From: a virus
Length of the DNA: 39,518 bases
Strand: one strand, 5' to 3'
IMG/VR virus record: IMGVR_UViG_3300023184_000268
Coordinates: 1-39,518 of that record
The position numbers and the translations under genes are program-made. Positions 1 to 23,270 of this stretch are shown in pieces (position 1 is the first letter of the stretch; the number at the start of each line of letters is the position of its first letter). The notes under the pieces were generated by a model that saw only the letters and a program-made list of their open reading frames with translations, did not search any database and had not been told where the DNA came from.

Positions 1-142
1 TTCCCGACGAACTGGTAAAAGTAGCTTGTGGGGTTGTAGTGCCTGCGGCGTAGGTGTACAGTTTACCGCCGGACAAAATGACGCCGCTATTGGTAAAGAA
101 CTGGGCCGCAGCGCCGCCCACAGGGGAGAGAAAGACGGCCAT
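1..142 (-). CDS. Tail fibre/tailspike head-binding protein, 5' part only
   Basis: Only the first 47 codons are present, because the gene runs off the left end of the contig. The encoded residues match the start of the complete 165-residue protein at 36362-36859. The one nucleotide difference (g to t near 129) is silent. It begins MAVFLSPVGGAAAQFF, with the GGKLYTYAAGTTTP element that I associate with N-terminal virion-attachment domains of podovirus tail fibres. The start codon follows GGAG inside the end of the upstream small gene. See the complete copy for function. Confidence 0.8.
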   Translation of the reverse strand, partial: MAVFLSPVGGAAAQFFTNSGVILSGGKLYTYAAGTTTPQATFTSSSG

Positions 143-147
143 TTAGG

Positions 148-312
148 TCACTCCAAAAGAATCAAGCCACCGTCCTCTTGCACGAGGTTATCGGATAACT
201 CGGTAAGAAGATTGTTTTGCACAGTCGCAGTCGCATATCCCGACAAAAGCGAAACAATGCTTCCAAGGCCAATTGAGACCCCGTTGCGAATGGGAATTCC
301 AAAGAAACTCAT
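148..312 (-). CDS. Small phage protein, 54 aa (left copy)
   Basis: A short gene from ATG at 312 to TGA at 148-150, overlapping the stop of the upstream 100-residue gene as ATGA. It starts MSFFGIPIRNGVSIGLGS and ends in an acidic stretch followed by GGLILLE. The N-terminal half is glycine- and aliphatic-rich and could associate with membrane or with other virion parts. I do not recognise a domain. The frame is kept in the second copy (36865-37029) despite 18 differences in 72 bases, with five or so residue changes and no stop. That is good evidence that the gene is translated and under selection. It sits between a probable structural protein and a tail fibre gene in the late operon, so a minor virion or tail-assembly role is a guess. 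Confidence 0.7.
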   Translation of the reverse strand: MSFFGIPIRNGVSIGLGSIVSLLSGYATATVQNNLLTELSDNLVQEDGGLILLE

Positions 313-611
313 TGGATGTTAATTGGTTTGCAATATATTGTGCCGCCCGTGGACACTTGGATTGCGCTTACACGCCACTGGCCGCTAACGCTAGAGGGCA
401 CTTTAAATGGGATTGGCGTGAACGGCGGTACTGGCGTACTGGACGTTGTGGCCGTAACGCCTTCACCAACCAGCACATAGCAAGCCTGGTCAGACCAAAC
501 TACCACACCTTGAGCCCCAGCAGGCCAAGCACCAGTTACGCCAGCAGTGCCGGTGTAAGTAATAGACTTGGCCGGAAAATTGGTGTCCGCTAATGGGTTT
601 AAGAGTTCCAT
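309..611 (-). CDS. Probable minor virion protein, 100 aa (left copy)
   Basis: The gene encodes MELLNPLADTNFPAKSI at the N terminus, then a Gly/Thr/Val-rich body with short beta-like segments (VVVWSDQACYVLVG, SGQWRVSAIQVS). This pattern suggests a small beta-sandwich structural protein. No family is recognised. It lies immediately downstream of the 122-residue helical protein and overlaps the next small gene by ATGA, so it is translationally coupled in the late operon. The second copy (37026-37328) differs at one residue only (Ser to Thr in the PSSVSGQ segment) although the DNA differs at many third positions. That indicates purifying selection. Placement between portal and tail fibre genes favours a head-tail or decoration role; this is inference. 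Confidence 0.75.
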   Translation of the reverse strand: MELLNPLADTNFPAKSITYTGTAGVTGAWPAGAQGVVVWSDQACYVLVGEGVTATTSSTPVPPFTPIPFKVPSSVSGQWRVSAIQVSTGGTIYCKPINIQ

Positions 612-620
612 GATGTGTCC

Positions 621-989
621 TTACGCTAAAAAGCGGAGTTTATACAGAGTACGCAGATAAATCTCAATGATATTGTCGATCAGTTGTTGTAATGACATAT
701 CAGTCCTGTCCACTACGTCATAGCGGCATTTTTCAATCTCATCCAACTGGTTTTGCAAGAAGTCGATGATGTTGGCCGTTTTGGTGGCCGAATGCAGAGT
801 GATTGGCCCCATCAGACCATGACGGCCTTGGTAGGCTTCGGCAAAATCATCCGCAGCGCCAATAATGCGCTCATAGAAAATATTGAGCGCAACATGCTTG
901 GAGTAGCTGCGGGTGTTCAAATGGACGCTATGGGCCACATCACGGGCCAAGAATAGCATCCCGACAAAATCGGCGGCTTTGTACATCAT
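621..989 (-). CDS. Small helical protein, DUF5856-like (left copy)
   Basis: A 122-residue protein predicted to be all-helical. The core has spaced His and acidic residues (LARDVAHSVHLNTRSYSKH, then FYERIIGAADDFAEAYQGRHG). This resembles the helix-bundle, Dps/ferritin-like phage family that I recall as DUF5856; the assignment is from memory and was not searched. His19, His22, His31, Glu39 and Asp46 could in principle bind metal, but a complete di-iron set cannot be shown by eye. The gene has two consecutive ATG codons. The first makes an ATGA overlap with the portal stop, so translation is coupled to portal. The role is unknown; copies next to portal are kept almost unchanged at protein level. 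Confidence 0.75.
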   Translation of the reverse strand: MMYKAADFVGMLFLARDVAHSVHLNTRSYSKHVALNIFYERIIGAADDFAEAYQGRHGLMGPITLHSATKTANIIDFLQNQLDEIEKCRYDVVDRTDMSLQQLIDNIIEIYLRTLYKLRFLA

Positions 990-3172
990 TGTGGCATTCC
1001 CATTGGTTGTTGTTCCATGCCTTCTTGTGGCATCTCAGGGCCGGTGTCCATGTCTCGCCCTGGCATTTCGTTAACCAAGTCGCCCGAAGTGATCATGCCA
1101 TGCACGGTACCCAGCACGATGTCTTGGATTTGCTCTGGCGACATAGACGCCTGCACAGCGGAAATCCGCTGAGTCTCGGCTTGGTACGCTTTGACCGTTG
1201 CCTCAAAGTCTTTGCGGTGCATATCCTGCGCTTCAATCGACTTGCCAGCATTGATGATCATCTGGTGCATCTGCTCCATCTCTTGGCCCATCGCTTGGAT
1301 TTGCTGCTCTGCGGCCTGCAACTCGGGCGGCTTGTCGCCGTCTTGCATGAGTTTGGGGTCGATAGTCTTGGCAAAACGCTTCGCCATCTCTTGGGCACCG
1401 GGCCAATCCATGTTCTTGACAAACAGGTCACCGGCCACTTGCCATAGCTGCGGGTTGCCTTGCAGCAACTGGCCCATTGCTTCCAACGCCTCTTGGCGCT
1501 TGGTCGCATAGCCTGGGCCGGTGGTCGCCACCACATCGTACTTGCCCACGCCAGGGTTGTAAATCTTGTCGATCACAATGCCGTTTTGATCCACGATCTT
1601 TTTGACCGGCTCGGCCTGCATCGGGTCAATCTTGACCATGCTGGTTTCGCCGTCTTCACCAATGATGCGGGCAATGCGCTGTGTGTCGTAGATTTTGGGG
1701 ATCAGGTCAATCAGTTGGCGGGTCAGATACCGCACACCACGGGCCAAGTTGTCACCAAAGTGGTATGTCCCAACATCACCCTCACGCTGACGCGCAAGAA
1801 TTGCTTTTCCTGAGCGTTCATTGGATGTCATGCCCAAAGATGCGTTGTACTGGCCGGTGGACGCTTTGATGTCCTCAGAAGCGCCTGCTTTAGCTTGCAA
1901 CAGCCCGCTGGAGGCCATTGGCGGCTGCGCCCGCTGGGGTAGTGGCAGCGTAGCGCCCGCGCCGTCTGTAACGTCTGGATTGACCTCCAAATACGGCCAG
2001 TTGGTCGTGTTGGCAGTCTTCCATTGGTTCTCGTAGCCTTCAAATTGACCGCCGTAGCCAATAAACGGTGCTTTTGGAGCCAAAGCCAGCATTTCTGCCT
2101 CTTGGGACACCCAATAGTTGTACATCCGCTGGGCATCCTTGGCGTTTCGCACCAGGCCAGACACGTACAAGCGACCGTCAACCTCAAATTCGTTGCCCAC
2201 AATGCGGACAATGGGGATATATTTACCCGCCCACTCGCGTTCTTCCAAGATTTCGTAGCCGTTTATCTTGCAATACTTGATGCGTGGCCGGTCAGACTGC
2301 CTAGATTTCTTGGGTTTGCCATAAATAGCGCGCAACTGCTTGTCTTCAGGCGTTCCCTCAAAGGCCGTGGCGTTGCCAGGGTACAAATTGAGCGTGCCCT
2401 TGTCGTAATCGACGTAATAGTAGTCAGCGATGCGGATCGTGTCTTGATTAAGCCACTGAGACAGGTTTTGATCACCCACACCCAACGTTTGCAAGGTGGT
2501 AATGGGCGCTGAGTCGGGGTACATCCGCTGGTAATCGTCTTTGCTAATGTCCTCAGTCACAAAACAATACTTGGCATCCGCGCCGCAAGGGTCTTGGATG
2601 GTTGGATCCATATACACCGAGAATGAATTGCGAATCCGGCCAATTTTGATATCTTGGTCAAAGGTATTGTCGTCGCAATACTCGGTCAGGATTCGGATAT
2701 AACCTTCTCCGTAGGAGACTTGGTTTTCGCAGGCGGTGTCGTAAGCGACATCTGCATCCGAGATGTATTCAATATGCCTGACCATGCCGTTGAAGACTTG
2801 GGCAACGTCAATGTCGGCCTTGTCGTCGGCTGGAATAACTTTGCCTGTTGGGCGGTTTTGGCGTTGGTCATTGGTGACTTGCCGTACGTGCTGCGGCAGC
2901 TTGTTAATGGTAAGACACGGGCGGGCGTTGATTGTCTGGCCCTGCACCGCACCGCGAGTTGCCAGCACATCAGCAGGCCACTGCCAGTGATTGTCTGGGC
3001 TTCCGGCGTAGAACTTCAGGTCGTCTATCTCGTCCTCGCGGGACTCAGACAGCGCCGATATCGCCATGTCTAGGCGGCTGCGCGCTGTCGCCAGTATGCC
3101 GGAGTCGTCGTTCTTTTTGCCGCCACCGTTGGCGACATTTCCTACCGCCACCATGCCGGTGTAATCAGCCAT
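986..3172 (-). CDS. Portal protein, P22 gp1-like (complete copy)
   Basis: This 728-residue protein has nearly the length of P22 portal (725) and is recognisable as that family. The N-terminal part contains LDMAISALSESREDEID and a conserved KFYAGSPDNHWQWP segment. The stem/crown-forming middle has SYGEGYIRI and YMDPTIQDPCGADAKY. A long Gln/Met/Glu-rich C-terminal helix (about residues 600-690) is typical of the barrel and coiled coil. A dodecameric portal forms the DNA channel, nucleates capsid assembly and docks terminase. The start at 3172 lies just after the stop of a 47-residue Lys-rich gene (taatATG). The partial second copy at the right end differs at only about six of ~600 residues. Confidence 0.93.
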   Translation of the reverse strand: MADYTGMVAVGNVANGGGKKNDDSGILATARSRLDMAISALSESREDEIDDLKFYAGSPDNHWQWPADVLATRGAVQGQTINARPCLTINKLPQHVRQVTNDQRQNRPTGKVIPADDKADIDVAQVFNGMVRHIEYISDADVAYDTACENQVSYGEGYIRILTEYCDDNTFDQDIKIGRIRNSFSVYMDPTIQDPCGADAKYCFVTEDISKDDYQRMYPDSAPITTLQTLGVGDQNLSQWLNQDTIRIADYYYVDYDKGTLNLYPGNATAFEGTPEDKQLRAIYGKPKKSRQSDRPRIKYCKINGYEILEEREWAGKYIPIVRIVGNEFEVDGRLYVSGLVRNAKDAQRMYNYWVSQEAEMLALAPKAPFIGYGGQFEGYENQWKTANTTNWPYLEVNPDVTDGAGATLPLPQRAQPPMASSGLLQAKAGASEDIKASTGQYNASLGMTSNERSGKAILARQREGDVGTYHFGDNLARGVRYLTRQLIDLIPKIYDTQRIARIIGEDGETSMVKIDPMQAEPVKKIVDQNGIVIDKIYNPGVGKYDVVATTGPGYATKRQEALEAMGQLLQGNPQLWQVAGDLFVKNMDWPGAQEMAKRFAKTIDPKLMQDGDKPPELQAAEQQIQAMGQEMEQMHQMIINAGKSIEAQDMHRKDFEATVKAYQAETQRISAVQASMSPEQIQDIVLGTVHGMITSGDLVNEMPGRDMDTGPEMPQEGMEQQPMGMPQ

Positions 3173-3173
3173 A

Positions 3174-3317
3174 TTATTTCTTGCCTTTTGGGGCTGGTGC
3201 GCTGCGCTTTACCGCATACGCAATTGCCACGGCCTGTTTGACCGGCTTGCCAGCTTTGACTTCAGCCTTTACGTTTTCACGAAAGGCTTTGGGTGAAGAT
3301 GATTTGACGAGTGGCAT
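3174..3317 (-). CDS. Small basic phage protein, 47 aa
   Basis: A 47-codon gene starting MPLVKSSSPKAFRENVKAE and containing AGKPVKQAVAIAYAVKRSA. It belongs to a very common short Lys/Ala-rich phage protein type with the PKAF...AGKPxKQAVAIAYxV signature; I know of no established function. Its ATG shares one base with the stop of the upstream 50-residue gene (TAATG), and its own stop lies one base before the portal ATG. Translation from terminase to portal is therefore tightly coupled. A nucleic-acid-binding or capsid-internal role is possible given the charge but is not shown. Confidence 0.8.
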   Translation of the reverse strand: MPLVKSSSPKAFRENVKAEVKAGKPVKQAVAIAYAVKRSAPAPKGKK

Positions 3318-3469
3318 TATTTCTTCTTCGCTGTTTTGGCAGAATCTTTAAAATCCTTGGCCGTTGGAGCGCCTTTTGCGCCTACAGGGCGCATTTTCTC
3401 TTTGCTGCCCGCTGCGATGCGTGCCTGTTTTGCATGAATATTTGCGTACAGTCCAGGTTTGGTAGCCAT
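3317..3469 (-). CDS. Small Lys-rich phage protein, 50 aa
   Basis: The preferred start is the ATG at 3469, one base after the TGA of the upstream gene. An in-frame ATG at 3514 would give 65 residues but would overlap the neighbour by 44 bases. The product begins MATKPGLYANIHAKQARIA, followed by GSKEKMRPVGAKGAPTAKDF and a KTAKKK tail. This is a widespread short phage protein type encoded close to terminase and portal, with no known function as far as I am aware. It is strongly positively charged. Its stop overlaps the next start by one base. Confidence 0.8.
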   Translation of the reverse strand: MATKPGLYANIHAKQARIAAGSKEKMRPVGAKGAPTAKDFKDSAKTAKKK

Positions 3470-3470
3470 A

Positions 3471-3722
3471 TCAACACTTCCATCGTTTAAGCGCAGCTTT
3501 AGCGCGTTCGCCATCTTTGGCGTTGGCCGCTACTGCGCCCATTCTTGCACAAAATGAATCCTTGCGACCCTGGTCTGCCTTGGTCTTGGGATTCGGGGCT
3601 GGCGGTTTGAGATTGGAGCCGGTTGCGGCATTGTACTTCTCGCGGCCTTTGGCCGTCAGGCCAGCGCCTTTGGATGTGGGCAGCTTCTCGCCGCGTCCGA
3701 CAGATAGAGATACTTTTTTCAT
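3471..3722 (-). CDS. DUF6321-like small basic protein
   Basis: The chosen ATG at 3722 forms an ATGA overlap with the stop of the large terminase, giving 83 residues; an ATG four codons upstream is less well placed. The sequence has the pattern KKVSLSVGRGEKLP, GAGLTAKGREKYNAATGSNL and KDSFCARMG...RWKC. I recall this as DUF6321, found in phages and in bacteria; the assignment is from memory. The two conserved Cys residues (in SFCARM and the C-terminal RWKC) and the many Arg/Lys residues suggest a nucleic-acid-associated fold. The gene lies between terminase and portal in a run of three small basic proteins. Function is unknown. Confidence 0.8.
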   Translation of the reverse strand: MKKVSLSVGRGEKLPTSKGAGLTAKGREKYNAATGSNLKPPAPNPKTKADQGRKDSFCARMGAVAANAKDGERAKAALKRWKC

Positions 3723-5242
3723 GCGCCCATCCATGATGTATGCATTGCGCCGTCTTGAGCGTTATAGCGGCGAGTGGGCTCAGTATACTCGCGGTGAGCC
3801 ACAGGAAAAGCAAACGTCACGCATATAGCGTCCGCTGCGTCTGGTGATGCTAAACCCCGTGCTTTCATTTCTTTCTTGCTCTCCAAGAAGATTGTTCCAC
3901 GTGAATCAGGCTTCATCTTAGGCGAAATCAAATCCGTCTTCAAGAACCTGTCGGTCGGGATACTAGCAGATTTCAACCATTCCCGCATCTCGCCCCACAT
4001 CTGCGCGCGCATATTTCCGTACATTATCGGGTTTTTGGCTTTATTTCCAAAGTTCACGCCCTTAATCTTGTATCGCTGCTCCTTGAGCCTGTCCACAATC
4101 CCAGCGCCCAGCCCACCCTCGTCAATCACCACCAGGGTCGGTTTATATTCCTCAATCGCGTCGATCACATACCCCACGACCGTCATAGTGTCGTCGCCCC
4201 GATGCCGGGTGATGTTGACAATATCCCGTCCCTGGCGCACGGCGATGACCGTGGCGTCCGCGCCGTAGCGCGCCGGATCAACGCCGATGATGATGGGCGC
4301 GGACAAGTCTTTGTACTTCTCCCGCTTCATGGCCTCGTCCACAATGTCCGAGCCGATGAACTGATCATCCCCCGCGCTTGGGAACATTCCGTAGACCTCG
4401 ACGTGCGACTGTGAGGAGTCCGGTCCGTACTCTTGAATGATCCGCTCATAGACTTGTTTGTCCGTACCCTCGACCGTGCGCGCGTCCACCACCTTGGTTT
4501 TCCAAAACGCCCGCTTGGAGTTGAACGCCTCGTAGAAGTACCCCGTGTTGCGGCGGGGGTTGGAGAATGCCAGCCAGAAGCGGTTGGGCGTGTTCTCCGT
4601 AAAGAAGCCCGCAGTCACCGCCCAAATCGTGTCGTCGATACCCGATGCCTCGTCGAACACCACCAGCACGCCGTCGTAGTTATGCACACCCGCGTAGGCG
4701 TCGGGGTTCTCCGCTGACCACAGCCGCCCTTCGACGCCCCAGTACCTGGTGCCCTTCTTCAAGTCCCGCTCGACCAGTTCGGTCAGCCACTTGGCGGGCA
4801 TCACCCGCGTGGCTGAGACTTCAAACCAGTGGCTGTTGATTGCCATCGCCAGCCACTTGGTAATCTCGGCCCAGGTGATACTTCTGAGTTGGGACTCCGA
4901 GTTAGCCGAGATGATGGTCGTCGAGCCGATGCGGGTCGCCAGCATCCAGATCGTAATCCAACTGACTAGCGCCGACTTGCCAATACCGCGCCCAGACGAG
5001 ATGGCGGCTTGCAATACTGCGTAATCTAGCTGACCCTTGTTCGCTTCGATATGCTCGGCGATGTCTTGCAGCACCTCGCGCTGCCACTTGCGCGGCCCTT
5101 TGAAGTTCTCCAGCGGCGTGCCTTTGACGCCCCACGGGAATACCAGGGCTACAAAATTAAGCGGGTTGTCCTTGATGCGCGGCGTCCACAGACGCGCCAT
5201 CAGGGCTTGTTCGTCTTCAGCGCTGTATTTGGTTGACTGCAT
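3719..5242 (-). CDS. terL: Terminase large subunit
   Basis: The 507-residue DNA-packaging motor has both expected domains. The ATPase has Walker A SGRGIGKSA at about 83-91 and Walker B GVLVVFDEAS at 191-200 (Glu198 as catalytic acid). The RNase H-like nuclease has VDPARYGADAT with Asp322, VVIDEGG with Asp374, and SPDAADA with Asp468/Asp471 as metal ligands. It cuts concatemeric DNA and pumps it into the prohead through the portal. Length and context match P22 gp2 (499 residues), suggesting headful packaging, but this cannot be proved from sequence alone. Its start overlaps the small terminase by 26 bases, as usual for this pair. Confidence 0.95.
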   Translation of the reverse strand: MQSTKYSAEDEQALMARLWTPRIKDNPLNFVALVFPWGVKGTPLENFKGPRKWQREVLQDIAEHIEANKGQLDYAVLQAAISSGRGIGKSALVSWITIWMLATRIGSTTIISANSESQLRSITWAEITKWLAMAINSHWFEVSATRVMPAKWLTELVERDLKKGTRYWGVEGRLWSAENPDAYAGVHNYDGVLVVFDEASGIDDTIWAVTAGFFTENTPNRFWLAFSNPRRNTGYFYEAFNSKRAFWKTKVVDARTVEGTDKQVYERIIQEYGPDSSQSHVEVYGMFPSAGDDQFIGSDIVDEAMKREKYKDLSAPIIIGVDPARYGADATVIAVRQGRDIVNITRHRGDDTMTVVGYVIDAIEEYKPTLVVIDEGGLGAGIVDRLKEQRYKIKGVNFGNKAKNPIMYGNMRAQMWGEMREWLKSASIPTDRFLKTDLISPKMKPDSRGTIFLESKKEMKARGLASPDAADAICVTFAFPVAHREYTEPTRRYNAQDGAMHTSWMGA

Positions 5243-5627
5243 CTACGACCTCAATGACCCGCATCTCTGCATCTTGCAGCGCCTGCGTGATGGATATGCG
5301 CTGGTCGATGTCCACCGTGATGGACTGCTTGGCAACCCAGCCGTGCTGGTGTTTGAGTATTTCAAGCGCCGCTTTGGCGTCGCCCTCGCGGGCAGCCTTG
5401 TGCAGGATGTCAGCCATCTCGCGCTCGCCGTCGGCCTTGCCCTTGATTGCGGCCATCTCGGCCAGTGCGTCAAATTGGCACAGGTGCCGGTACTCTTCAG
5501 GCCGCATCCCAGAGGCCAGCGCCAGTGTGTCGCCTTTAAGCCCCAGCTTGGCAGCGTCGTATATCGCCTGCAAGCGCGATTCAGTCGCTTGGACGTGTCG
5601 GACAGTGAGCGGCAGTGATTTGAACAT
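5217..5627 (-). CDS. terS: Terminase small subunit
   Basis: A 136-residue protein directly upstream of and overlapping the large terminase. The N-terminal third has a helix-turn-helix-like segment (AAKLGLKGDTLALASGMRPE, about 26-45). The middle is helical and Glu/Ala-rich (ALAEMAAIKGKADGEREMAD), as expected for the oligomerisation part of small terminases. The C-terminal part contains an AALEILKHQHGWVAKQ motif that I associate with TerS-like phage proteins. It recognises the packaging initiation site and recruits the large subunit. The start is supported by AGGAGA eight bases upstream of ATG. It is the first gene of the long leftward late operon, next to the gene-free region. Confidence 0.85.
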   Translation of the reverse strand: MFKSLPLTVRHVQATESRLQAIYDAAKLGLKGDTLALASGMRPEEYRHLCQFDALAEMAAIKGKADGEREMADILHKAAREGDAKAALEILKHQHGWVAKQSITVDIDQRISITQALQDAEMRVIEVVDAVNQIQR

Positions 5628-5755
5628 TTGTTCTCCTGCGCCTGGGAGGCGTGTGCTGGAAGTTTACATTAAAAAAATTTTGTTTGCGGCCCCTCCGTTT
5701 ACGTTGGCCCATCGCGTCGGCCCTACCCCTCCCCACTGGCTGAAATCCTACACAA

Positions 5756-5834
5756 AATGGCAAGCATATAGTTAGCAGAATGGCAAGGGTAATGCTAGTC
5801 AGAATGGCAAGCATATAGTTAGCAAAATGGCAAG
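5756..5834 (+). repeat. Four AATGGCAAG iterons, 23-24 bp period
   Basis: The 9-mer AATGGCAAG occurs at 5756-5764, 5779-5787, 5803-5811 and 5826-5834, spaced 23, 24 and 23 bases apart. Copies one and three extend to a shared CATATAGTTAGCA. A period just over two helical turns puts all copies on about the same face of DNA, as expected for binding sites of an initiator or repressor. They may equally be operators for the leftward late promoter. Confidence 0.8.
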
Positions 5835-5850
5835 CGGTTGGCCATGGGGA

Positions 5851-6119
5851 TGTGGGTCATGTAGGCATAGCCTACGCGGTTGCATGGCCTGCGCTGCTAG
5901 CTACCTGGCCGCGCGCCAGTGCGCGCCAGCACCGGCCGTCGATGTGGGTCATGTGGGTCATGCCAATGTAGTCGCATGGTGTGCGATACCGGCCACCGGC
6001 CACCGGCCACCATGTGGGTCATGTAGGCATGACCTACAGGGTTAGAGTGCTCCCGTTAACCATGCGGCCATGCGCGGCCAGCAAAATGCGGTGCGTTGGC
6101 GGTGTGGGTCATGTAGGCA
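5851..6119 (+). repeat. Dispersed GTGGGTCATGTAGGCA repeats
   Basis: TGTGGGTCATGTAGGCA occurs at 5851-5867, 6013-6029 and 6103-6119. Two shortened back-to-back copies of TGTGGGTCAT lie at 5943-5961. Two of the full copies run on into inverted sequences (GTAGGC-ATA-GCCTAC at 5861-5875, and TGTAGGCATGACCTACA at 6021-6037), so they can form small hairpins or bind a dimer. A fragment, GACCTACA, recurs in the AT-rich block near 6228. The copies are on one strand and absent from coding parts that I read. Confidence 0.75.
5988..6008 (+). repeat. ACCGGCC tandem repeat, three copies
   Basis: Three perfect head-to-tail copies of the 7-mer ACCGGCC lie inside the candidate origin, between two GTGGGTCAT repeats. 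The array is very GC-rich and locally self-complementary (GGCC, CCGG). It could be a protein-binding array or simple slippage. Confidence 0.7.
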
Positions 6120-6415
6120 CCCAAAAAGCCATTTTCAAATCGCTCTACCCCATATTGTAAGTATTGTAAGATTTCATAATGTGAAATGTAAGGTTTAGAT
6201 AAGTTAAGATCAAATAAATGACAATATGACCTACAATATACGGTCGTCATTCGGGGATGCATGGAAACAGCGATCACCCACAAATCGCCACGCTAGGCAC
6301 CCACAAAATGCCTAATAGTTGACTAAAATCAAGGGTTATTGCATTGTGCAAGAAAATCCCTTACACTATCAACCGTAGCAGCTTCGCTACTCAATACAGT
6401 AAAAAGGCAAACACC

Positions 6416-7171
6416 ATGACTAAAATTCTAGGTTACATTGCATACGAAGGCCCATCAGAAATCGACGGCGCGCCCATTGTCGTGATCGTGAATAAGATCA
6501 ACGACGCTAGTAAGAACGGGAAAACGGGCGACATAGTGCAGAGTTTCATTATCCGCAGCGACGTCAACCCGGTGCAGGCACTGCAAACGGGCGACGACGC
6601 CAGCATATGCGGCCAGTGCGAACACCGGCCGATCATCGCAAAGCAAACGGGCAAAGTGCCATGCTATGTGCAAGTAGCAAAATCGGTGCTATCAGTTTAT
6701 AACGCATACAAACGCGGCCGCTATGTCAAAGCGGACCCGGCCACCATAGCGCGCGCACTGGCCGGTAAAGTAGTGCGGATCGGCACCTACGGCGACGGTG
6801 CGGCCGCGCCGGTGCGTATGTGGACACAAATTACCCGGTATGCGGCCGGTGTGCGCGGATATACGCACCAATGGCAAAACGCGGGTTTTGATCATGCTGC
6901 ATGGGCACCGTTAGCCATGGCCAGCGCCGATACCCTCGAACAAGCTGCACTGGCCAATTTATACGGGATGCGGGTTTTCCGGGTATCGGTCGGCGTCGAT
7001 CGTCAACCCGGCGAGACGGTGTGCCCGGCCAGTGCAGAGGGCGGTAAAAAATCGACGTGTGCTAAGTGCACGCTGTGCAGTGGCACGCGGATCCAAGCGC
7101 GCGATGTCGTAATCGCGGACCATGCTATCGGCCATGATCGGCGCCGGACCATTATGCTAGCGGCCGCATAG
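6416..7171 (+). CDS. DUF7227-like Cys-rich phage protein
   Basis: ATG at 6416 is preferred over an upstream TTG at 6344, giving 251 residues. The protein has an N-terminal Cys pair in SICGQCEHRP, then PCYVQVAKSVLSVYNAYKRG, a VRIGTYGDGAAAPVRMW segment, GYTHQW, and a C-terminal Cys cluster (CPASAEGGKKSTCAKCTLCSG). I recall the same order in a widespread phage family called DUF7227. Six or more Cys residues suggest metal or Fe-S binding; this is inference. It is the first gene after the candidate origin and the largest in the early block, so a host-takeover or control role is plausible. No enzymatic activity is established to my knowledge. Confidence 0.8.
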   Translation: MTKILGYIAYEGPSEIDGAPIVVIVNKINDASKNGKTGDIVQSFIIRSDVNPVQALQTGDDASICGQCEHRPIIAKQTGKVPCYVQVAKSVLSVYNAYKRGRYVKADPATIARALAGKVVRIGTYGDGAAAPVRMWTQITRYAAGVRGYTHQWQNAGFDHAAWAPLAMASADTLEQAALANLYGMRVFRVSVGVDRQPGETVCPASAEGGKKSTCAKCTLCSGTRIQARDVVIADHAIGHDRRRTIMLAAA

Positions 7172-7215
7172 GGCTATCTGCAAACGGCCATCGCTGGCCG
7201 CTTAGGGGCGCGCAC
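7172..7215 (+). promoter_or_regulatory. Intergenic hairpin element, copy 1
   Basis: Directly after the stop codon the RNA would read TATCTGCAAACGGCCA and fold CGGCCA-TCGC-TGGCCG (7185-7200). The same leading 16 bases and a stronger hairpin recur after the next gene (7474-7515). There is no T-run, so it is not a standard terminator. Processing site, attenuator or protein-binding RNA element are possible. Confidence 0.6.
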
Positions 7216-7248
7216 TGTGCACGCTATAACCTAAACGAAGGGCAAATT

Positions 7249-7473
7249 ATGCTTAAGACTATGCGCGCACGTTATCCCGGCCGGTGCGCGGCCACCGGCG
7301 CGCCGATCAAACCCGGTGCCTTGATTTATTACGACGGTCGCACCAAACGCGCTACGCTCGCGCCGGTGCTAAACACCATTACGCTAATGGGTGAACATGG
7401 CCCGTCGCACTTTACCCGTAACGCACGCGGCCGGTGTGAGGATGCGCCATGCTGCGGATGCTGCACTATCTAG
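7249..7473 (+). CDS. Small Cys-containing early protein, 74 aa
   Basis: The gene starts at an ATG preceded by GAAGGG. The product has a CAATGAPIKPGALIYYDG segment near its N terminus, resembling short phage proteins that begin with a Cys...Gly-x-x-Ile-x-x-Gly zinc-ribbon-like turn, and it ends in a dense CEDAPCCGCCTI tail. Six Cys residues in 74 suggest metal binding. It lies between two copies of a repeated intergenic hairpin, so its expression may be set separately from its neighbours. No function is recognised. Confidence 0.75.
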   Translation: MLKTMRARYPGRCAATGAPIKPGALIYYDGRTKRATLAPVLNTITLMGEHGPSHFTRNARGRCEDAPCCGCCTI

Positions 7474-7515
7474 GGTTATCTGCAAACGGCCAGCGACGGC
7501 CGTTTGCGGGCTAAT
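7474..7515 (+). promoter_or_regulatory. Intergenic hairpin element, copy 2
   Basis: The stop codon is followed, as in copy 1, by TATCTGCAAACGGCCA. Here the arms are a perfect 10-bp inverted repeat, GCAAACGGCC (7482-7491) and GGCCGTTTGC (7498-7507), around a six-base loop AGCGAC. No T-run follows. The shared 5' part with a changed but still paired stem looks like a duplicated structured RNA element. Confidence 0.65.
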
Positions 7516-7542
7516 CCTGGCCGCTATACATTGGAGTAAATT

Positions 7543-7743
7543 ATGCGAAATTATGGTGAAACCAAAGCCCAGCGCCAGGCGCGCTATTTGGCCGAATTCA
7601 GCGACGCCGTGATCACGGCCAAGCCCGCGCACGCTGGCCGGATCGAATGGCCGTCAGCGCTGCATTTTTATTTTACCGGCGTGCCGGTGGCCGATGCGGC
7701 CGCGCGGTATGTGGCAAACCATGCCGATGAGGTCGCAAAATGA
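7543..7743 (+). CDS. Small early protein, 66 aa
   Basis: The ATG is well placed after TTGGAGTAAATT. The protein is mostly helical (ETKAQRQARYLAEFSDAV at the start; VADAAARYVANHADEVAK at the end) with a central HFYFTGVPV. I do not recognise a domain. The stop overlaps the next ATG (ATGA), and from here six small genes follow almost without gaps, as expected for a single early transcript. Early position and small size suggest host modulation, but nothing in the sequence shows how. Confidence 0.75.
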   Translation: MRNYGETKAQRQARYLAEFSDAVITAKPAHAGRIEWPSALHFYFTGVPVADAAARYVANHADEVAK

Positions 7744-7874
7744 AAATTGGACAACACATCTACATTTCACTATATGGTAAGCCCGAACGGGTCCTAATCC
7801 TGGCGATCCATCGCGCCGGGACCATCGATGTGCAGCGCAGCGATGGCGCTTGTTACCGGGTGAGCGGACTATGA
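7740..7874 (+). CDS. Small beta-rich early protein, 44 aa
   Basis: A 44-codon gene whose ATG overlaps the previous stop (ATGA) and whose stop overlaps the next ATG. It reads MKIGQHIYISLYGKPERVLI, then a RAGTIDVQRSDGACYRVSGL ending. The alternation of short beta strands and turns resembles tiny SH3- or Tudor-like phage proteins with the pattern GTIDVxRxDGxCYRVSGL. The function is unknown to me. Coupling at both ends makes translation credible. Confidence 0.7.
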   Translation: MKIGQHIYISLYGKPERVLILAIHRAGTIDVQRSDGACYRVSGL

Positions 7875-8047
7875 TTCACCCGCTATTTGAAGCCATACTG
7901 CGGCCATACGCGCCACCGGCACCACTACCCACGCCCGAAGCAATCGACGCGGCCATGCTGGCCGATAAGTTAAACGACGGGTACTTTCAACGTCAAATAA
8001 ACAACGCTATCAACCTGGAGTTACGCTATGCAAACCCTGAAAATTAA
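7871..8047 (+). CDS. Small early protein, 58 aa
   Basis: The ATG at 7871 overlaps the upstream stop as ATGA and is preferred over a start seven codons earlier. The product begins MIHPLFEAILRPYAPPAP and continues into a helical part (EAIDAAMLADKLNDGYFQRQ, INNAINLELRYAN). The Pro-rich linker after about residue 13 is distinctive. No family is recognised. It overlaps the following gene by 20 bases. Confidence 0.65.
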   Translation: MIHPLFEAILRPYAPPAPLPTPEAIDAAMLADKLNDGYFQRQINNAINLELRYANPEN

Positions 8048-8309
8048 ATCCACCACCTATACGCTGGCGTCACTCGAGCGCGTCGATCAAGTGCAAGCGC
8101 TTACAAGCAAAATCACCGGCAAACACAAACCCGTGCGGCCAAAGGCACCCAAGCGCACTTACCCGCGTTTTGGGGATAGTCTATCGACGCACGCCTACGT
8201 GCGCGATTATTACGCCATGAATGCCCTGGGCGAGTCGAACCACTTTGCGCCACTGTCCAAGCACCTTAGCGTGCCCGTGGGCGTCGATTCAATGGAGGTC
8301 GAAGCATGA
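8028..8309 (+). CDS. Basic early protein, 93 aa
   Basis: The start is supported by GGAG eight bases before ATG. The protein has a basic central segment (SKITGKHKPVRPKAPKRTYP), which suggests contact with nucleic acid, followed by an aromatic FGDSLSTHAYVRDYYAMN stretch and an acidic end. No known domain is recognised. It is coupled to the next gene through an ATGA overlap and lies in the run of small early genes. Confidence 0.7.
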   Translation: MQTLKIKSTTYTLASLERVDQVQALTSKITGKHKPVRPKAPKRTYPRFGDSLSTHAYVRDYYAMNALGESNHFAPLSKHLSVPVGVDSMEVEA

Positions 8310-8413
8310 GACAGCACTACAAACCCGAACCAGTGGCGCGCCCTTGGGCTGATCTGCTGCTGGCCGTTTCAATTGGCCTGATCTTGGCCGTTATCTTATT
8401 GGAGTACCTATGA
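8306..8413 (+). CDS. Single-pass membrane peptide, 35 aa
   Basis: A 35-codon gene starting inside the previous stop (ATGA), with GGAGG seven bases upstream. After a short soluble N terminus (RQHYKPEPVARPW) comes one clear hydrophobic helix, ADLLLAVSIGLILAVILL, ending EYL. It is a predicted inner-membrane peptide. Similar tiny membrane proteins are common in phage early regions; function is unknown. Its stop overlaps the next start. Confidence 0.6.
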   Translation: MRQHYKPEPVARPWADLLLAVSIGLILAVILLEYL

Positions 8414-8544
8414 TTGACGAAAATTTTGAAGAGGCGCATTACATTGCGCGGATAAACCACCTGGAAGACGTGTTGCGCGCCCTGCTGGACGACGACAATG
8501 AGGCGACGCGCGAAGATGCCCAGCGCGCGCTTGCGTGCTCATAA
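8410..8544 (+). CDS. Small acidic early protein, 44 aa
   Basis: The gene has TTGGAG upstream and an ATGA overlap with the membrane peptide gene. The product is a short acidic helical protein (MIDENFEEAHYIARINHLED, then VLRALLDDDNEATREDAQRA), possibly a single helical hairpin. It is the last credible gene of the early rightward operon and ends about 50 bases before a strong terminator. No domain is recognised. Confidence 0.65.
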   Translation: MIDENFEEAHYIARINHLEDVLRALLDDDNEATREDAQRALACS

Positions 8545-8593
8545 TCGCTGCGGCCCTTGTGGCCGCGATCCTGGCGATCCTTTTCGATCTAGA

Positions 8594-10876
8594 CTAAGCC
8601 CCTTCGGGGGCTTTTTCTATGGCTCGGCGCAGATCGGACTTGTTGCTTTTGGCTAACTCCGGCGCGCAGAAAATATGTTTTTTGGTCTGATACTCGCGCG
8701 ACGCCAGGCGGCCCATGTCCACCCAGCCCGCTTCCTTCAGCGCGTGCATAAGAGCCGGGGGGACTATTTTTATCCCTGCTGGGGCGTATAGCTGCAATTC
8801 GTCGCAGATCGCGTAGAAGGGCGCGCCTACCACGCCGCTAGAGAATGCACGCTGCCGGGCCTTGATTAGGTTGACCAGGAACGACTCAGCGCCGCTCATG
8901 CCATGCTCGACCATAATCATCTTCGCTTCGGTCATTGGGGGCGCTGCGTTGGGGTTCCAAGCGCTCACGTCACGGGTGTGCAAGTAAGCCGCCACGGCAG
9001 CAAAGCCGCCCCGGTGTTCGTACCAGTTCCAAAGGGCGACGGCCTCTGCTTCGGGCAGCTTACCGGCCTCCGACCATAAAACAAACCATCGGCGATCCTC
9101 TGAGGGCAGGGAGATCGCCACGCGCTCATTGGAAAACGCCACCACGAAAACGCGGTTCAACGCATAGTACGGGTGCAAGCCCTTGCGGTTGACCATAAGC
9201 AACTCAGGCGGCGCTGCGATGATGGGCTTGAGGGTATTCTCCAGCGCGCGCCGGTCTTTGGCCTCTGCTTGGCGCAACTCGGCGATCTCCATCACTTCGC
9301 ACTCGAGCGCATAGCCCCATTGCGAATTGAGGTCTTCATTCTTGACCAGGGAGCAATTGGCCTTGGCCTTGCCGCCTATGGCCCAAAAGAACGGGGCAAA
9401 CAGGGTATCTTTGCCGCTGCCATGATTGCCGCCCAAGAGGATAGCGTGATTGATCTTGTGGCTGGGAAACTGCACTTTATGGGCTAGGGCGTTAAGCAAA
9501 TGCTCACGCTCATACTCAATTGGCACCATGCGCTCGACATGGCGCAGCCACGCGGACACGTCAGCGGCCACCGGCTCGGGCCGGGCGTCACGCCAGCGGT
9601 TGCCGTACACCAAGCCCTCACGCGCGACCAGCACCGACTCGCCTGCGGCGTAAGTGATACCGACCAGGGCGCGGGCTCCCTTGTCTTGGCGGTACTCATC
9701 AAACGACACCGACGCCTCGACCTTGGGGTGCTTGCCGTGGCGGGACTTGCAATTGATATGCCGGAACAGGGCGTTGAAGGTCTTACGCATTACCTCGCGC
9801 CGGTCTTCCATGTCAAAGTACGCGTCGTCGTTCTGTATGTACGCAAAGCGCTCGAACCAGCCGGACATCTCCACGCGGCCCAACTCGCGATGCTCGACCT
9901 CGGCGATAACTGTCGCCGCGTCGTTGGGGTATTCGACTGTCGGGGTTAGCTTGGAAAGGGTGTTTTCCATTACTGCCGCCAGCAACTCGTCGCGCAGGCC
10001 ATGCGAACGCTTGGGCCCACCATGCTCTTCCACCCACGCGAGATAGGCGACGCTGTCCAGATGGGCGCAATGCTCATGCAGGCAGCAGTAGGCGCGGTTT
10101 ACGGGGTGATAGCGCCCCATGGGGTTGCCGTCGCTATGCTCGGCGCTGTTCGGGCAAACGATGCCCCACCAGCCGCTGCTGTTGCCCTTCTCCAGCAAGT
10201 CGCCACGCGCTGCTGTCCACGCCAGCACGTCATCGCCGCCGTCATCGGTGAGCCGGATCGGGCGTACTGTGGCGGTGTCGGCTGGGTTGGGGGTGACGCC
10301 CAAGGCGGTGCATATAACTTCTAAAGAAAATTCCCTCTCGGGGTGGAACTCGACCAAGGCAGACGCGAAGCGGTCGCGGCCAGGCTTCAAGTTAATCGAG
10401 CCGGGCAGTCTGAAATTGCGGACGGGGTTAATCGCACCGCCGTCGGTGTAGCCTGCCTCTGCGATTGCGACAATGGCCGCGCTGAATTCGCCCTTCATGG
10501 GCTGGTCGTCAAGGGCGAAGGTGTAGCCGTACTGGTAGTTGTTGGGGCTGGTCTCCATGATCCAAGTCGGGTCGATGGGCGGCACCTTGGCCTTGGTGCC
10601 CACGTCATCCAGCACTAGGAACGCCACACGCTCGCAGGCGTCGGCCTTGGCTGCGGGCTTGCCCTCGTCAAATCGGTCGATGATGAAGCAGCCGGTGTTG
10701 CAGTACCACGTCTGATCGGGCTTCCACTTTTTGGGCAGGAACGCAGGCCACGCGCACTTAACTGCGCCATCGGCGTGAAACTGAGTCTCGCCGTCTTTGA
10801 GGATGGGCTTTTGCCGCACAAACAAAATAACCTCGCCCTCGGGCGCAATGTTTTCGAGATAAGTTAAGAAATTCAT
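8594..10876 (-). CDS. Primase-helicase (RepB-type primase + SF3/D5-like helicase)
   Basis: The 760-residue replication protein has three parts. The N-terminal part (about 60-200) resembles plasmid/phage RepB-like archaeo-eukaryotic primases, with VAFLVLDDVG (Asp90/Asp91) and INPVRNFRLPGSINLKPG (149-166). Next comes a probable zinc-binding segment (Cys241, His247, Cys264/265, Cys270, His272). The C-terminal helicase has Walker A LLGGNHGSGKD at 480-490, an acidic VMEIAELR motif near 528-535, FSNE at 581-584 and DRRWFVLW near 594-601. These resemble the DUF5906/VirE-like superfamily 3 group. It would prime and unwind DNA for the adjacent polymerase. Its start overlaps the polymerase stop by ATGA, and its 3' end contains the opposing terminator. 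Confidence 0.87.
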   Translation of the reverse strand: MNFLTYLENIAPEGEVILFVRQKPILKDGETQFHADGAVKCAWPAFLPKKWKPDQTWYCNTGCFIIDRFDEGKPAAKADACERVAFLVLDDVGTKAKVPPIDPTWIMETSPNNYQYGYTFALDDQPMKGEFSAAIVAIAEAGYTDGGAINPVRNFRLPGSINLKPGRDRFASALVEFHPEREFSLEVICTALGVTPNPADTATVRPIRLTDDGGDDVLAWTAARGDLLEKGNSSGWWGIVCPNSAEHSDGNPMGRYHPVNRAYCCLHEHCAHLDSVAYLAWVEEHGGPKRSHGLRDELLAAVMENTLSKLTPTVEYPNDAATVIAEVEHRELGRVEMSGWFERFAYIQNDDAYFDMEDRREVMRKTFNALFRHINCKSRHGKHPKVEASVSFDEYRQDKGARALVGITYAAGESVLVAREGLVYGNRWRDARPEPVAADVSAWLRHVERMVPIEYEREHLLNALAHKVQFPSHKINHAILLGGNHGSGKDTLFAPFFWAIGGKAKANCSLVKNEDLNSQWGYALECEVMEIAELRQAEAKDRRALENTLKPIIAAPPELLMVNRKGLHPYYALNRVFVVAFSNERVAISLPSEDRRWFVLWSEAGKLPEAEAVALWNWYEHRGGFAAVAAYLHTRDVSAWNPNAAPPMTEAKMIMVEHGMSGAESFLVNLIKARQRAFSSGVVGAPFYAICDELQLYAPAGIKIVPPALMHALKEAGWVDMGRLASREYQTKKHIFCAPELAKSNKSDLRRAIEKAPEGA
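8597..8616 (+). terminator. UUCG-loop intrinsic terminator of the early operon
   Basis: AGCCCC-TTCG-GGGGCT followed by TTTTT is a textbook intrinsic terminator with a stable UUCG tetraloop. It has a T-tract only in the rightward direction, so it stops the early transcript. The hairpin DNA lies within the last codons of the convergent primase-helicase gene. Confidence 0.9.
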
Positions 10877-12768
10877 TTTCCGTATCGCTCCATAATTGAG
10901 ACTTCAGCGTCTAGGGGTAAACCCTTAGCCCATTCGGGCGGGGTACACATGACCAAACGCAGCGCCTCGGGGTCGGGCGTTGCGGTTTCGATCACAATTT
11001 CATCGTGGACGTGCAGCACCACGTCATCAAGCTGGCGCAGCGAATGGCGCAGCAAGTCGTTAGCCACGGCCTGGGTAATGTTCTCGCAGGCCAGCCCCTT
11101 CCACAAACGGGCGCGGGGCCACTCTTTGGCATCAGCGGCGGGTTTCCATGCAGCTTTGGCGTAAGTCACACCTTCGGATTCCAATCGGGCATAGGGGTAA
11201 CACAGGATGCGTCCAGAGGGCAGCACATACCATAGGTGCAGGCCGTCGAACAGGTACACGACGCGCCCCGCGCTGAACTCTTTGCCTTTGTTTCGCATGG
11301 CGCGGGTGTACGCTGATTCTAGGTCTTGCCAGTACAAAACAGACCAAGGGTTTGCCCTACGCCAAGCATCTACCATGCGTTTGGCATCTGACTCAGGCAG
11401 CAAGATGCCGTAGGCGCGGCCCATCGCCGCAAAGGCACCGACGCCACCGGCAAAGCCGCAGGCCAACTCCTGCACCTTACCAATTTGACGCTGGTCTTTG
11501 TTGACCTGGCTCACACTGACGCCGAACGTCGCCGAGGCGTTGACCTTGTACACATCCTCGCCGGACGCAAAGATCGCCAGCTTGTCGTCACCCCTGCCAG
11601 ACAACCAAGGGTTTACCCTAGCTTCGATGGCCGACCAATCAGCAACGACTAGGTGTTTACCCTTACTAGGTACAAGGGCCGGTCGGAGCATCCCTCTGAG
11701 GACGTCGGTGACTCGCTTGCCGAACTTGGGGACGATGGCGTGGCCCCTGACCATTGCTGTGCGTACGGCTTCGGGCTCTTGGGCGCATTTGCGGGTGAAG
11801 TTGTGGACTTGGGCTCCATAAGACGAAGCGCGTCCAGTAGCGCTGCCGCCTGCAAAGACAAACGCGCCTCGTACTCTGCCGTCTTCTTCATCTGATAACT
11901 GTGCAAGGCGGCTGAACTTCGCAACCGACGACGCCCATAGGTCGTCGGCGCATTGGATAACTTCTTGAACGTCATGGGGGACATCCTCACAGTTTAGTAA
12001 ATTGGCCCTGACAGTTTTGTCAATCGAATACTTGCCGTCCTTCTCCATCAGCTTCTTGGCCTGCGGGCCGACACGGGCCAGCACCCATTCGCGCATCTTA
12101 GGGGAGCGCACGCTGGTGATCTCGCCGCCAGTCACCTCGGCGACGATGGTTTGAATCTCGGCCAACTCAGCGCTGGCGTACTTGACCGCAGCATGGCACA
12201 GGGGCACGTCCACCAGCACGCCTCGGTCGTTGATCCGCTCGTTGACGTGGTAGTCTGCCAACTCCTGCGCTGACAGTGGCCGCATGGCCTTGCTGACTGC
12301 TCTCATGGCCTTAACATCCATTTCGCAGTAGGCCACCATCTCGGCGGTCAACTCGGGCGACTCCTCGTAAGGCGGCACGCTCATCTTGCGGATTAGCTGG
12401 GCACCACGATGGTCTTTCTTCATGGACGCGCCAGCAAAGCGCCCCACGTCTTCCAGCGAGCCAGGCGCGCAATTGGCGCGGGCCTGCGCTGCGGTGCAGA
12501 CGAATTGCTCTAGGGCAAAATCCAACTGCAAGACGTACCAAAAAATTAAGCGCTCGAAAGCGGCGTTGTGGGCGTAAATCAAACCGTCCCAGCGCCGCAC
12601 CCGCTCGGGCAGTGGCTGGTCAGGCAACCAGGTCTGCACGTCTTCATCGTCGAAGGCGTAAGACATACACAGCACTTCGGTGCTGCCGTGCTGGGCGTAG
12701 TTGTAAACGCCCGCGACTTTTAGGTCGCACTGTGACCTACTTTCGAAGTCAATCCACAAAGCAGTCAT
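10873..12768 (-). CDS. polA: Family A DNA polymerase with 3'-5' exonuclease
   Basis: The 631-residue replicative polymerase starts with a DnaQ-type exonuclease: LWIDFESRS (Asp7, Glu9), YAHNAAFERL (65-74) and AYCEMDVKA (Asp151). The polymerase domain has motif A VVADWSAIEAR (Asp377), motif B DQRQIGKVQELACGF (425-439) and motif C LHVHDEIVI (588-590). There is no N-terminal 5'-3' exonuclease, as in T7-type phage enzymes. In motif B the residue aligned by eye with E. coli Phe762 is Leu435, the 'Leu762' type common among environmental phage polymerases. Its start overlaps the upstream HNH gene by 20 bases, and its stop is coupled to the primase-helicase start. Confidence 0.95.
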   Translation of the reverse strand: MTALWIDFESRSQCDLKVAGVYNYAQHGSTEVLCMSYAFDDEDVQTWLPDQPLPERVRRWDGLIYAHNAAFERLIFWYVLQLDFALEQFVCTAAQARANCAPGSLEDVGRFAGASMKKDHRGAQLIRKMSVPPYEESPELTAEMVAYCEMDVKAMRAVSKAMRPLSAQELADYHVNERINDRGVLVDVPLCHAAVKYASAELAEIQTIVAEVTGGEITSVRSPKMREWVLARVGPQAKKLMEKDGKYSIDKTVRANLLNCEDVPHDVQEVIQCADDLWASSVAKFSRLAQLSDEEDGRVRGAFVFAGGSATGRASSYGAQVHNFTRKCAQEPEAVRTAMVRGHAIVPKFGKRVTDVLRGMLRPALVPSKGKHLVVADWSAIEARVNPWLSGRGDDKLAIFASGEDVYKVNASATFGVSVSQVNKDQRQIGKVQELACGFAGGVGAFAAMGRAYGILLPESDAKRMVDAWRRANPWSVLYWQDLESAYTRAMRNKGKEFSAGRVVYLFDGLHLWYVLPSGRILCYPYARLESEGVTYAKAAWKPAADAKEWPRARLWKGLACENITQAVANDLLRHSLRQLDDVVLHVHDEIVIETATPDPEALRLVMCTPPEWAKGLPLDAEVSIMERYGK

Positions 12769-13225
12769 AGTGCCTCCGCACTTTTATAGCGCTTATTGTT
12801 GTTTCATGTACGCCATATTCAGCCGCCAGTTGTCTCCCAATACCATAACCTTCAGACTTAATGCGGCTACGGATATCTTTGACTTGTGCTTCGGTCAGCT
12901 TACCTCTGTGTTGGTGTAATACTGCGTCTATGTTGTTCTCACTACGTGTGCCCCACCGCAGATTAGACAGTCGGTTATCGGCAGGGTTTCCGTTCATGTG
13001 CAGGCATTCATGCTTGTCTGGAGCCGCGCCAACAAAAGCCAGCAGCACTAGCTTGTGAACGCACTGGCTATTTCCACGGCCCAACGCCACACTCAAATGA
13101 CCGCCGGGCATACGGCCTGGGCGCAAGATGCAACCTTCAGGACGGCGCTGATACGAGCGAATTTGCCCTTGGTCACTAACTTCATATTTGCCGTCGTACC
13201 CCGGCACAAGTTTCCAAACTTCCAT
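12749..13225 (-). CDS. NUMOD4-HNH homing endonuclease
   Basis: The start at 13225 is preferred to one at 13261 because AAGGAG lies eight bases upstream, giving 158 residues. The N-terminal part begins MEVWKLVPGYDGKYEVSDQG, the NUMOD4 signature. An HNH core follows: HKLVLLAFVG, then HECLHMNGNPADNRLSNLRWGT. The C-terminal part, LTEAQVKDIR to YGIGRQLAAEYGVHETTIS, is a helix-turn-helix DNA-binding element. Such proteins are free-standing or intron-encoded homing endonucleases. It sits directly upstream of and overlapping polA, a frequent insertion target, and no intron is apparent. It is probably a selfish element rather than part of the replication machinery. Confidence 0.92.
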   Translation of the reverse strand: MEVWKLVPGYDGKYEVSDQGQIRSYQRRPEGCILRPGRMPGGHLSVALGRGNSQCVHKLVLLAFVGAAPDKHECLHMNGNPADNRLSNLRWGTRSENNIDAVLHQHRGKLTEAQVKDIRSRIKSEGYGIGRQLAAEYGVHETTISAIKVRRHYDCFVD

Positions 13226-13280
13226 GTCGTCGTCTCCTTTTCCAATGCCCACTGTTACCAATGGGCATCAGAAAAGGCCG

Positions 13281-13910
13281 TTACGCCGCTACGCGACGAC
13301 GACGACTTGGGGCTGCAACCTCGGCGGGCTTGTCAGCTTCGCCTTCCAAAGTCAACCATTCCACCACCTCGAAGACCGGGGTAAAAATCCGGCCATACGA
13401 CTTGTGTTGGTAATGCTCCTTTTTGAGGCGCACGACCGGCACTGGTTTGGATTGGTCTTTGTCAACCTGGTCTGCCAAAGCTACGGCCAGAGCCTGCACG
13501 CTACGCTTGCCGCCCACCGAGGTGGTCGTAAAACGCGCTTCCATGCCCTTGTCTTCGCCAGTCAGACACTTCAGACTCATACCCACCTGAGTCTCCCAGC
13601 CCTTCTTGGCTGCTGGGGGCGCTCCGTCCAACTCCGGCAGGGGCTGGGATACGGGCACCATTTTCTCGCCCAACACTTCGCCGTCGCCCCAAGCAATAAA
13701 GCCGTGGACAAACGAGAAAGGATTGACCGCCCAAGTGCTGTCCTCTTCGACTTCGGTTTGGTCTGCACCAAACACCCAGTGGCCGGTCTTGTCCATTTTC
13801 AGGATGACCGTACCGGCTGGGCCGACGTCGGATTGGATAGCCCGCAGGGAAGTTGCGAGGGTGGAAACTGCGGGCAAGCCCGCTTGGGAGAACGCTACTA
13901 GATTGGACAT
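13281..13910 (-). CDS. Putative ssDNA-binding/replication accessory protein
   Basis: A 209-residue protein with AAGGA upstream of ATG. I do not firmly recognise its family. It has beta-rich segments (GTVILKMDKTGHWVFGADQ, WAVNPFSFVHGFIAWGDGE), a central GWETQVGMSLKCL and a C-terminal VFEVVEWLTLEGEA, ending in a basic SRRRR tail rather than the acidic tail of classic SSBs. Its position between a DUF2800 nuclease and family A polymerase is where many phages carry DUF2815, a gp2.5-like ssDNA-binding protein. The call therefore rests on synteny and composition. A recombination mediator is the main alternative. Confidence 0.5.
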   Translation of the reverse strand: MSNLVAFSQAGLPAVSTLATSLRAIQSDVGPAGTVILKMDKTGHWVFGADQTEVEEDSTWAVNPFSFVHGFIAWGDGEVLGEKMVPVSQPLPELDGAPPAAKKGWETQVGMSLKCLTGEDKGMEARFTTTSVGGKRSVQALAVALADQVDKDQSKPVPVVRLKKEHYQHKSYGRIFTPVFEVVEWLTLEGEADKPAEVAAPSRRRRVAA

Positions 13911-13920
13911 TTCTGTTCCT

Positions 13921-15048
13921 TTATTGAAGTTTAGAAAGGGCAGCGGTTAATTGCTTACCCAAGAGCATCACCTCGGGGCGCGGGTCATCCGCGCTTGCCA
14001 AGGTGTTACCTGAACTGATGGCGACCACCAGATCACCCGGCAAAGCCAGCTTGCGCTTTTTGAGCGCCTTCTCAGCTTTGGCCGGAGAGATCACGGAAGT
14101 CTCCAACACTTCAGATTCGGTGAGACCAAACGCAAACAAGGCGACCTTGGCCTTGTCTTCGTCGGTCCATGAACGGATTGCACGCTTGGCGACCAGTTTG
14201 TAATCGGGCAGCTTGGCACCCGACTCCAGCAACTGGAGCGCCAAGGCGCGCAAATCAGTGATCCACTGCTCCAGCATATCAGCATTTTTGAGATATGTGG
14301 CAATGGTGGGTGGGTCTAGCGAGTCAATGGTCGTTTTGAGCGCCCGCTCGACTGCGCCGGTCATCTGTGGGCATACCGGCTTGGCGGCGCACCAGCGGCA
14401 GTGATCGCCAGAGCGCAGCGGCGCGGTCTTCTTCTCGCTCATTTTGACGGCCTGCACCAACTGCAATTCAAACTCAGCAATGCGCGCTGGTGTGGTCACC
14501 CAACGCTTGACTGCTGGCGGCTGCACAATGACCATCTCGATCTCAGTCACGCCCTCAAAGGCCCACTGAGCGGCTGGCGTACGCATGGCCGCAGCGGCGT
14601 AGAACATCAGTTGCGGATTCTCCACAGAATCAACGACCACTCCATCACCAAACTTCCAATCGAGTACAACAGCGCGAGTGCCGAGACGACCGATAAGGTC
14701 AGTACTACCAAATACACCAGGCAACAAGTCGCCAAAGCTAACACGAGTTTCAGCTTCAATTTCCATCTCCTGTTTGGGGTCAATCTGATCCAGCGCCGCC
14801 AGCGCGGGCTTTAGCTTGTTGTCGATCAGTTCTTGGGTCAACGTCTGATCTTCGTACACGGTGCCAAGGTAATGCTCTGGCGGTTGGCCGGACATCACGA
14901 TCTCTGCGATGACGTTGTGTAGGAGCGTGCCCTCGTCAGCGTACTTGCTGCTGGGCTTGGGTGGCATCTTGGCAACTAGGGCCACAGAGCCAGGGCAGTT
15001 GATTACCCGCTTGGCGGTGCTACCGCCGACGATGTTACTGTGGTTCAT
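13921..15048 (-). CDS. DUF2800 PD-(D/E)XK exonuclease (Cas4/RecB-like)
   Basis: The 375-residue protein carries the RecB/Cas4-type nuclease pattern. It starts with RVINCPGSV (Cys18), then ADEGTLLHNVIAE (38-49), VFGSTDLIG (Asp117) and AVVLDWKFGDG with Asp130 and Lys132 as core residues, then NPQLMFYAAAA (QxxxY-like motif). The Cys set GDHCRWCAAKPVCPQM (217, 220, 226) together with Cys18 would hold an Fe-S cluster. This is the DUF2800 family found beside DNA polymerase genes of many phages. A role in recombination or processing of replication ends is likely. Its ATG overlaps the stop of the small gene before it (ATGA). Confidence 0.88.
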   Translation of the reverse strand: MNHSNIVGGSTAKRVINCPGSVALVAKMPPKPSSKYADEGTLLHNVIAEIVMSGQPPEHYLGTVYEDQTLTQELIDNKLKPALAALDQIDPKQEMEIEAETRVSFGDLLPGVFGSTDLIGRLGTRAVVLDWKFGDGVVVDSVENPQLMFYAAAAMRTPAAQWAFEGVTEIEMVIVQPPAVKRWVTTPARIAEFELQLVQAVKMSEKKTAPLRSGDHCRWCAAKPVCPQMTGAVERALKTTIDSLDPPTIATYLKNADMLEQWITDLRALALQLLESGAKLPDYKLVAKRAIRSWTDEDKAKVALFAFGLTESEVLETSVISPAKAEKALKKRKLALPGDLVVAISSGNTLASADDPRPEVMLLGKQLTAALSKLQ

Positions 15049-15350: not shown

Positions 15351-15377
15351 TTGGACTGTCCTTTAGTTGATTGGGAC

Positions 15378-15408
15378 TTGACTATAGCACAACTTTTTGT
15401 GCTAAACT
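15378..15408. promoter_or_regulatory. Divergent promoters with palindromic operator
   Basis: The 18-base site AGCACAACTTTTTGTGCT (15386-15403) is a perfect 7-bp inverted repeat around four bases. Rightwards, TTGACT (15378-15383) and TAAACT (15403-15408) flank it as -35 and -10 with a 19-bp spacer. Leftwards, TATAGT (15386-15381) is a good -10 box for the replication operon, with no clear -35. A dimeric regulator bound here would block both directions. The only nearby HTH candidate of its own is the protein at 19367. Confidence 0.6.
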
Positions 15409-15415
15409 TCTTGAC

Positions 15416-21097: not shown

Positions 21098-21100
21098 TAA

Positions 21101-23268: not shown

Positions 23269-23270
23269 TT

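Follow-up and report, generated by a model that had tools for sequence, protein, structure and literature searches.

The 39,518-nucleotide stretch of DNA analysed here (IMG/VR record IMGVR_UViG_3300023184_000268, hereafter the window) is almost certainly the product of an assembly path that ran once around the circular-closing, 36,717-bp genome of a P22-like podophage and then on into a sister strain, in a de Bruijn graph of the metaSPAdes type. The second copy of the repeated end is an assembly artefact, not biology, and the biology of the phage is unchanged by it. The features to which we refer are as follows.

1..36717, no strand: one complete genome unit, strain A, delimited by the unique repeated 127-mer, a closed k=127 cycle and collinear relatives
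1..127, no strand: left occurrence of the branch node (the common 127-mer), where the A and B paths part, with their first difference at 128
36718..36844, no strand: right occurrence of the branch node, where the cycle closes and the path exits onto the strain B branch (common 127-mer and graph)
36845..39518, no strand: strain B dead-end branch of 2,674 bp, an artefactual second copy homologous to 128-2801 (homology and graph)
39420..39518, no strand: terminal 99-nt run identical to 2703-2801, equal to the node that closes the strain B bubble in the k=99 graph
986..3172, minus strand: complete portal protein gene of strain A (phrog_156, E 1.5e-130)
37703..39518, minus strand: portal protein gene of strain B, truncated in its 5' part where the contig stops (phrog_156, E 1.4e-107, profile 103-671)
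621..989, minus strand: DNA-binding / starvation-inducible regulator-like protein, strain A (phrog_858, E 4.8e-23)
309..611, minus strand: small gene without a PHROG match, strain A (dN 0.004 and dS 0.25 between the copies)
36362..36859, minus strand: tail-fibre-like gene across the unit join (open reading frame; phrog_26190, and weakly phrog_18673, 'tail fiber protein')

By direct comparison, positions 1-2801 align with 36718-39518 in 2801 ungapped columns at a constant offset of 36717 and with no net indel, as had been claimed from the sequence. The divergence, which had been put at roughly 5%, is real and measures 6.0% (169 mismatches in 2801 columns, 129 of them transitions and 40 transversions); the identity of 94.0% agrees with the 94% obtained in independent comparisons. 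The differences are mainly silent, again as first described: 133 of the 142 changed codons are synonymous, no reading frame is broken and there are no internal stops. Across the three complete or nearly complete common genes dN is 0.004-0.011 and dS 0.25-0.31 (Nei-Gojobori), and dN/dS between the copies is about 0.03. The strain B copy of the small gene lies at 37026-37328 and that of the regulator-like gene at 37338-37706, the strain B portal copy has an open 5' frame with 604 of 728 codons present, and the tail-fibre-like gene has its first 142 nt to the right of the join.

P22-like phages are a group with headful packaging, and the window carries portal, terminase, head-closure, major head and DNA-ejection families in syntenic order (matches to phrog_156, phrog_2, phrog_578, phrog_283 and phrog_598), a P22-like gene set that speaks for reading the two ends as headful terminal redundancy whose differences arose by sequencing or assembly error. 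However, both redundant ends of a single molecule derive from the same concatemer and should not differ, nor should direct terminal repeats, and here 169 of 2801 positions differ. For 165 of these 169 sites, moreover, relatives carry both alleles, which together with the excess of silent codon changes is the mark of natural polymorphism rather than of error, and leaves redundancy plus error with a vanishingly small probability.

The low dN/dS and the alleles found in relatives show the second copy to be natural sequence, from another strain. A and B each have their nearest third strains at 93-95% identity, approximately the distance that separates the two from one another; they are two ordinary members of one group rather than a copy and its corrupted version. 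They presumably co-occurred in one sample. An exact search of IMG/VR with a 33-mer from within 1-127 returned no other record, and hence no second contig of these strains, and degenerate patterns covering both alleles returned related strains only, whose identity to A or B over long distances was at most about 94-95%. Among the records searchable, from which near-identical ones may be missing, no contig carrying strain B across the right-hand end was found, which counts against an overrun.

At their outer limits the two copies carry runs of exact identity that were absent from the original prediction. Bases 1-127 are identical in both copies and base 128 is the first to differ; the final 99 bases (2703-2801 and 39420-39518) are identical as well. 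When starting points within the overlap are taken at random, an identical run of at least 127 nt has a frequency of 0.0004 and one of at least 99 nt a frequency of 0.0185. Over the whole record and on both strands, the 127-mer at position 1 recurs at 36718 only and is the sole 127-mer present twice, and the 128-mer at the same position is unique in the record. No further long direct repeats were reported across the window. Short imperfect tandem and spaced repeats with 44-nt, 57-nt and 41-nt units, the last of these partly palindromic, sit at 5744-5997 and 7169-7511 among short reading frames in the terminase-primase interval.

The setting metaSPAdes -k 33,55,77,99,127 has been used for JGI metagenomes (PMC7311315, PMC11584781), and those metaSPAdes contigs that break at repeats have common end stretches equal to the maximum word size (PMC10914622). 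Both end-run lengths found here, 127 and 99, belong to this list. The exact overlap at one contig end is 127, which is the maximum word size going by JGI practice; on the same footing, this record was presumably made with the JGI assembler and settings, including a largest word of 127. Built from the right-end copy and the first 36,717 bases in circularised form, a k=127 graph compacts to one cycle of 36,844 (36,717 + 127) and one dead-end branch of 2,801, with only two special nodes: the 127-mer at 1/36718, from which both cycle and branch depart and to which the cycle returns, and the loose tip of the branch. Cycle and branch together account exactly for the record length (36,844 + 2,801 - 127 = 39,518). 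With k=99, it is on the node 2703-2801 that the final bubble of strain B closes, and this node coincides exactly with the contig's right end.

We propose that strain A closes into a cycle on the 127-mer 1-127 = 36718-36844, and that a sister strain B from presumably the same sample, differing by about 6% here, has the same 127-mer and exits from it on a branch of its own. The assembler would walk the A cycle once, reach the common 127-mer and take the B branch, following it for 2,674 bases until support for B ended. At the right edge, a k=99 contig may have been carried into the k=127 stage and left unextended for lack of 127-mers; that the right end shares 99 nt, not 127, and hence needs this extra step, counts against an overrun of this kind. 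The left end starts at the node and not before it, so that the data apparently held only the end of the unit ahead of copy A; such an absence of other sequence is what a closed genome leads one to expect, and for a linear duplication would be coincidence only. The mechanism is now more specific than the one originally put forward, and an artefact arising by way of a 127-nt node is supported. A true recombinant or mixed concatemer, with two strains in one molecule (from a co-infected cell or tandem prophages) and faithfully assembled, is conceivable in that phages do recombine, but its junction would have to coincide with an assembler node whose length is precisely the standard maximum word size, and one would not expect rare recombinant DNA to dominate a metagenome assembly; we consider it very unlikely.

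The portal gene retrieved 80 IMG/VR loci. Related loci with a single alignment extending at least 150 bases to each side of the join between 36717 and 1 were counted as crossing it. There are 49 of these, a few of which share a contig, and in each the alignment is collinear through the join, for example at 93.6% over 5,201 bases in L123 and 92.9% over 5,630 in L117, with L105 another such case; the natural order across the contig ends is therefore known, and at the closure point the relatives run on without a break or a second copy. With the exact 127-nt node, these loci refine the genome unit that had been estimated at about 36.7 kb to 36,717 bp. They also bear out, together with the node here and in sister records, the suggestion of a path taken once around a closed genome, while the onward continuation into a sister strain is upheld by the node, the graph and the alleles of the relatives.

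The ends of 27 other near-complete records were compared. Exact closure is on 127 nt in four of these (G001, G012, G018 and G019) and on 55 to 145 nt in another seven. In three more the first difference falls at base 128: G002 (230-nt overlap, 1 difference), G005 (302-nt overlap, 8 differences, 99-nt tail) and G006 (211-nt overlap, 1 difference). The mirrored pattern is seen in G013, whose final 127 bases are identical to its own 2689-2815 and the rest of whose 2.8-kb overlap is about 87% alike; its overrun falls in the portal region, as in this record. Thus 4 of the 27 carry the mark at base 128 or its mirror. Among these records, IMGVR_UViG_3300011115_000146 (L138/L139, 37,964 bp) is a mirrored overrun: its first 2.7 kb derive from a strain that differs by about 13%, its final 127 bases are an exact match to 2689-2815 and the portal is counted twice. 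Overruns of 84-175 nt past a 127-nt closure are seen in IMGVR 3300035701_000133, 3300043397_000019 and 3300046807_000001 (L142/L143, L148/L149 and L150/L151), which look like complete closed genomes with inexact end repeats and a first difference at 128. In G021 (L172/L173, IMGVR_UViG_3300027971_000088, 41,992 bp) the ends are 86% alike over 5.8 kb, for a unit of about 35.6 kb, and the end overlap contains no 127-nt node; such long diverged ends lacking the node count against the overrun, and perhaps reflect another assembly route.

These records bear directly on whether one phage molecule could carry a copy of the portal region at each end as a real, diverged duplication. Both copies do retain open, conserved frames without indels, which speaks for such a duplication. 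Yet the contig would then have to begin by chance exactly 127 nt before the first difference, with the same coincidence repeated in three more records and mirrored in a fifth. A single portal gene is found in 26 of the 27 near-complete relatives, the exception, G013, being itself a contig-end overrun with an exact 127-nt node, and in the 49 join-crossing loci sequence like the end of the unit leads straight to sequence like its start. Nor is the repeated stretch the same elsewhere: projected on the window, it falls in the capsid/adaptor/head-closure region in G021, in the early region in G002 and in the adaptor region in G005, and among the relatives no duplication was found at a conserved position with both copies internal in some record. 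A real duplication is accordingly extremely unlikely. The overrun into a sister strain accounts for the portal and its neighbours being counted twice in the record, as had been anticipated, and the unit holds one portal gene.

For use of the record, the unit should be taken as 36,717 bp, with 36718-39518 trimmed and the portal and its neighbours treated as single-copy. End-repeat tests that require identical ends miss such records despite the complete closed genomes inside them. A search for a first difference one base past the maximum word size, or its mirror, detects these overruns without reads, as it did in the four relatives here.

Phage DSL-LC05 (OR003940.1), a circular record of 37,569 bp, has the same portal, DNA-binding protein and tail gene order, as do the IMG/VR relatives, and a 'DNA binding protein' is annotated at the place corresponding to 621..989. 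It differs in that its DNA matches 93% of the 1-2801 region at about 72% identity, and it showed no diverged second copy. At 21319-24830 the window encodes two large proteins (649 and 519 aa) with no PHROG match, which are probably DNA-transfer/ejection proteins, as they adjoin the ejection protein and are syntenic with DSL-LC05. A scan of genome contigs gave portal relatives, the closest on contigs binned with Betaproteobacteria and Burkholderiales; L180, L181 and L182, with 84-98% protein identity, lie on short contigs in such bins, a weak hint of a host in that group, given that bins can hold free phage contigs.

Closure as described here is that of a circular assembly graph, and in such a graph permuted and fixed ends look alike: a circularly permuted headful genome, as originally suggested, would produce it, and so would one with direct terminal repeats, or a replicative circle. 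The closest known counterpart is the k-mer terminal overlap of circular genomes ('self_circular' in COBRA, PMC10914622), with which this record shares a start and closure on the 127-nt maximum word, and whose clean form is represented by the relatives G001, G012, G018 and G019. Unlike these, the path in this record ran 2,674 nt past closure into another strain, so that its ends are inexact. The arrangement also resembles the forks caused by within-population variation that were simulated in the same study (PMC10914622), in that the branch occurs at a variant site after a common word of maximum size; here, however, cycle and branch were joined in one contig instead of breaking.
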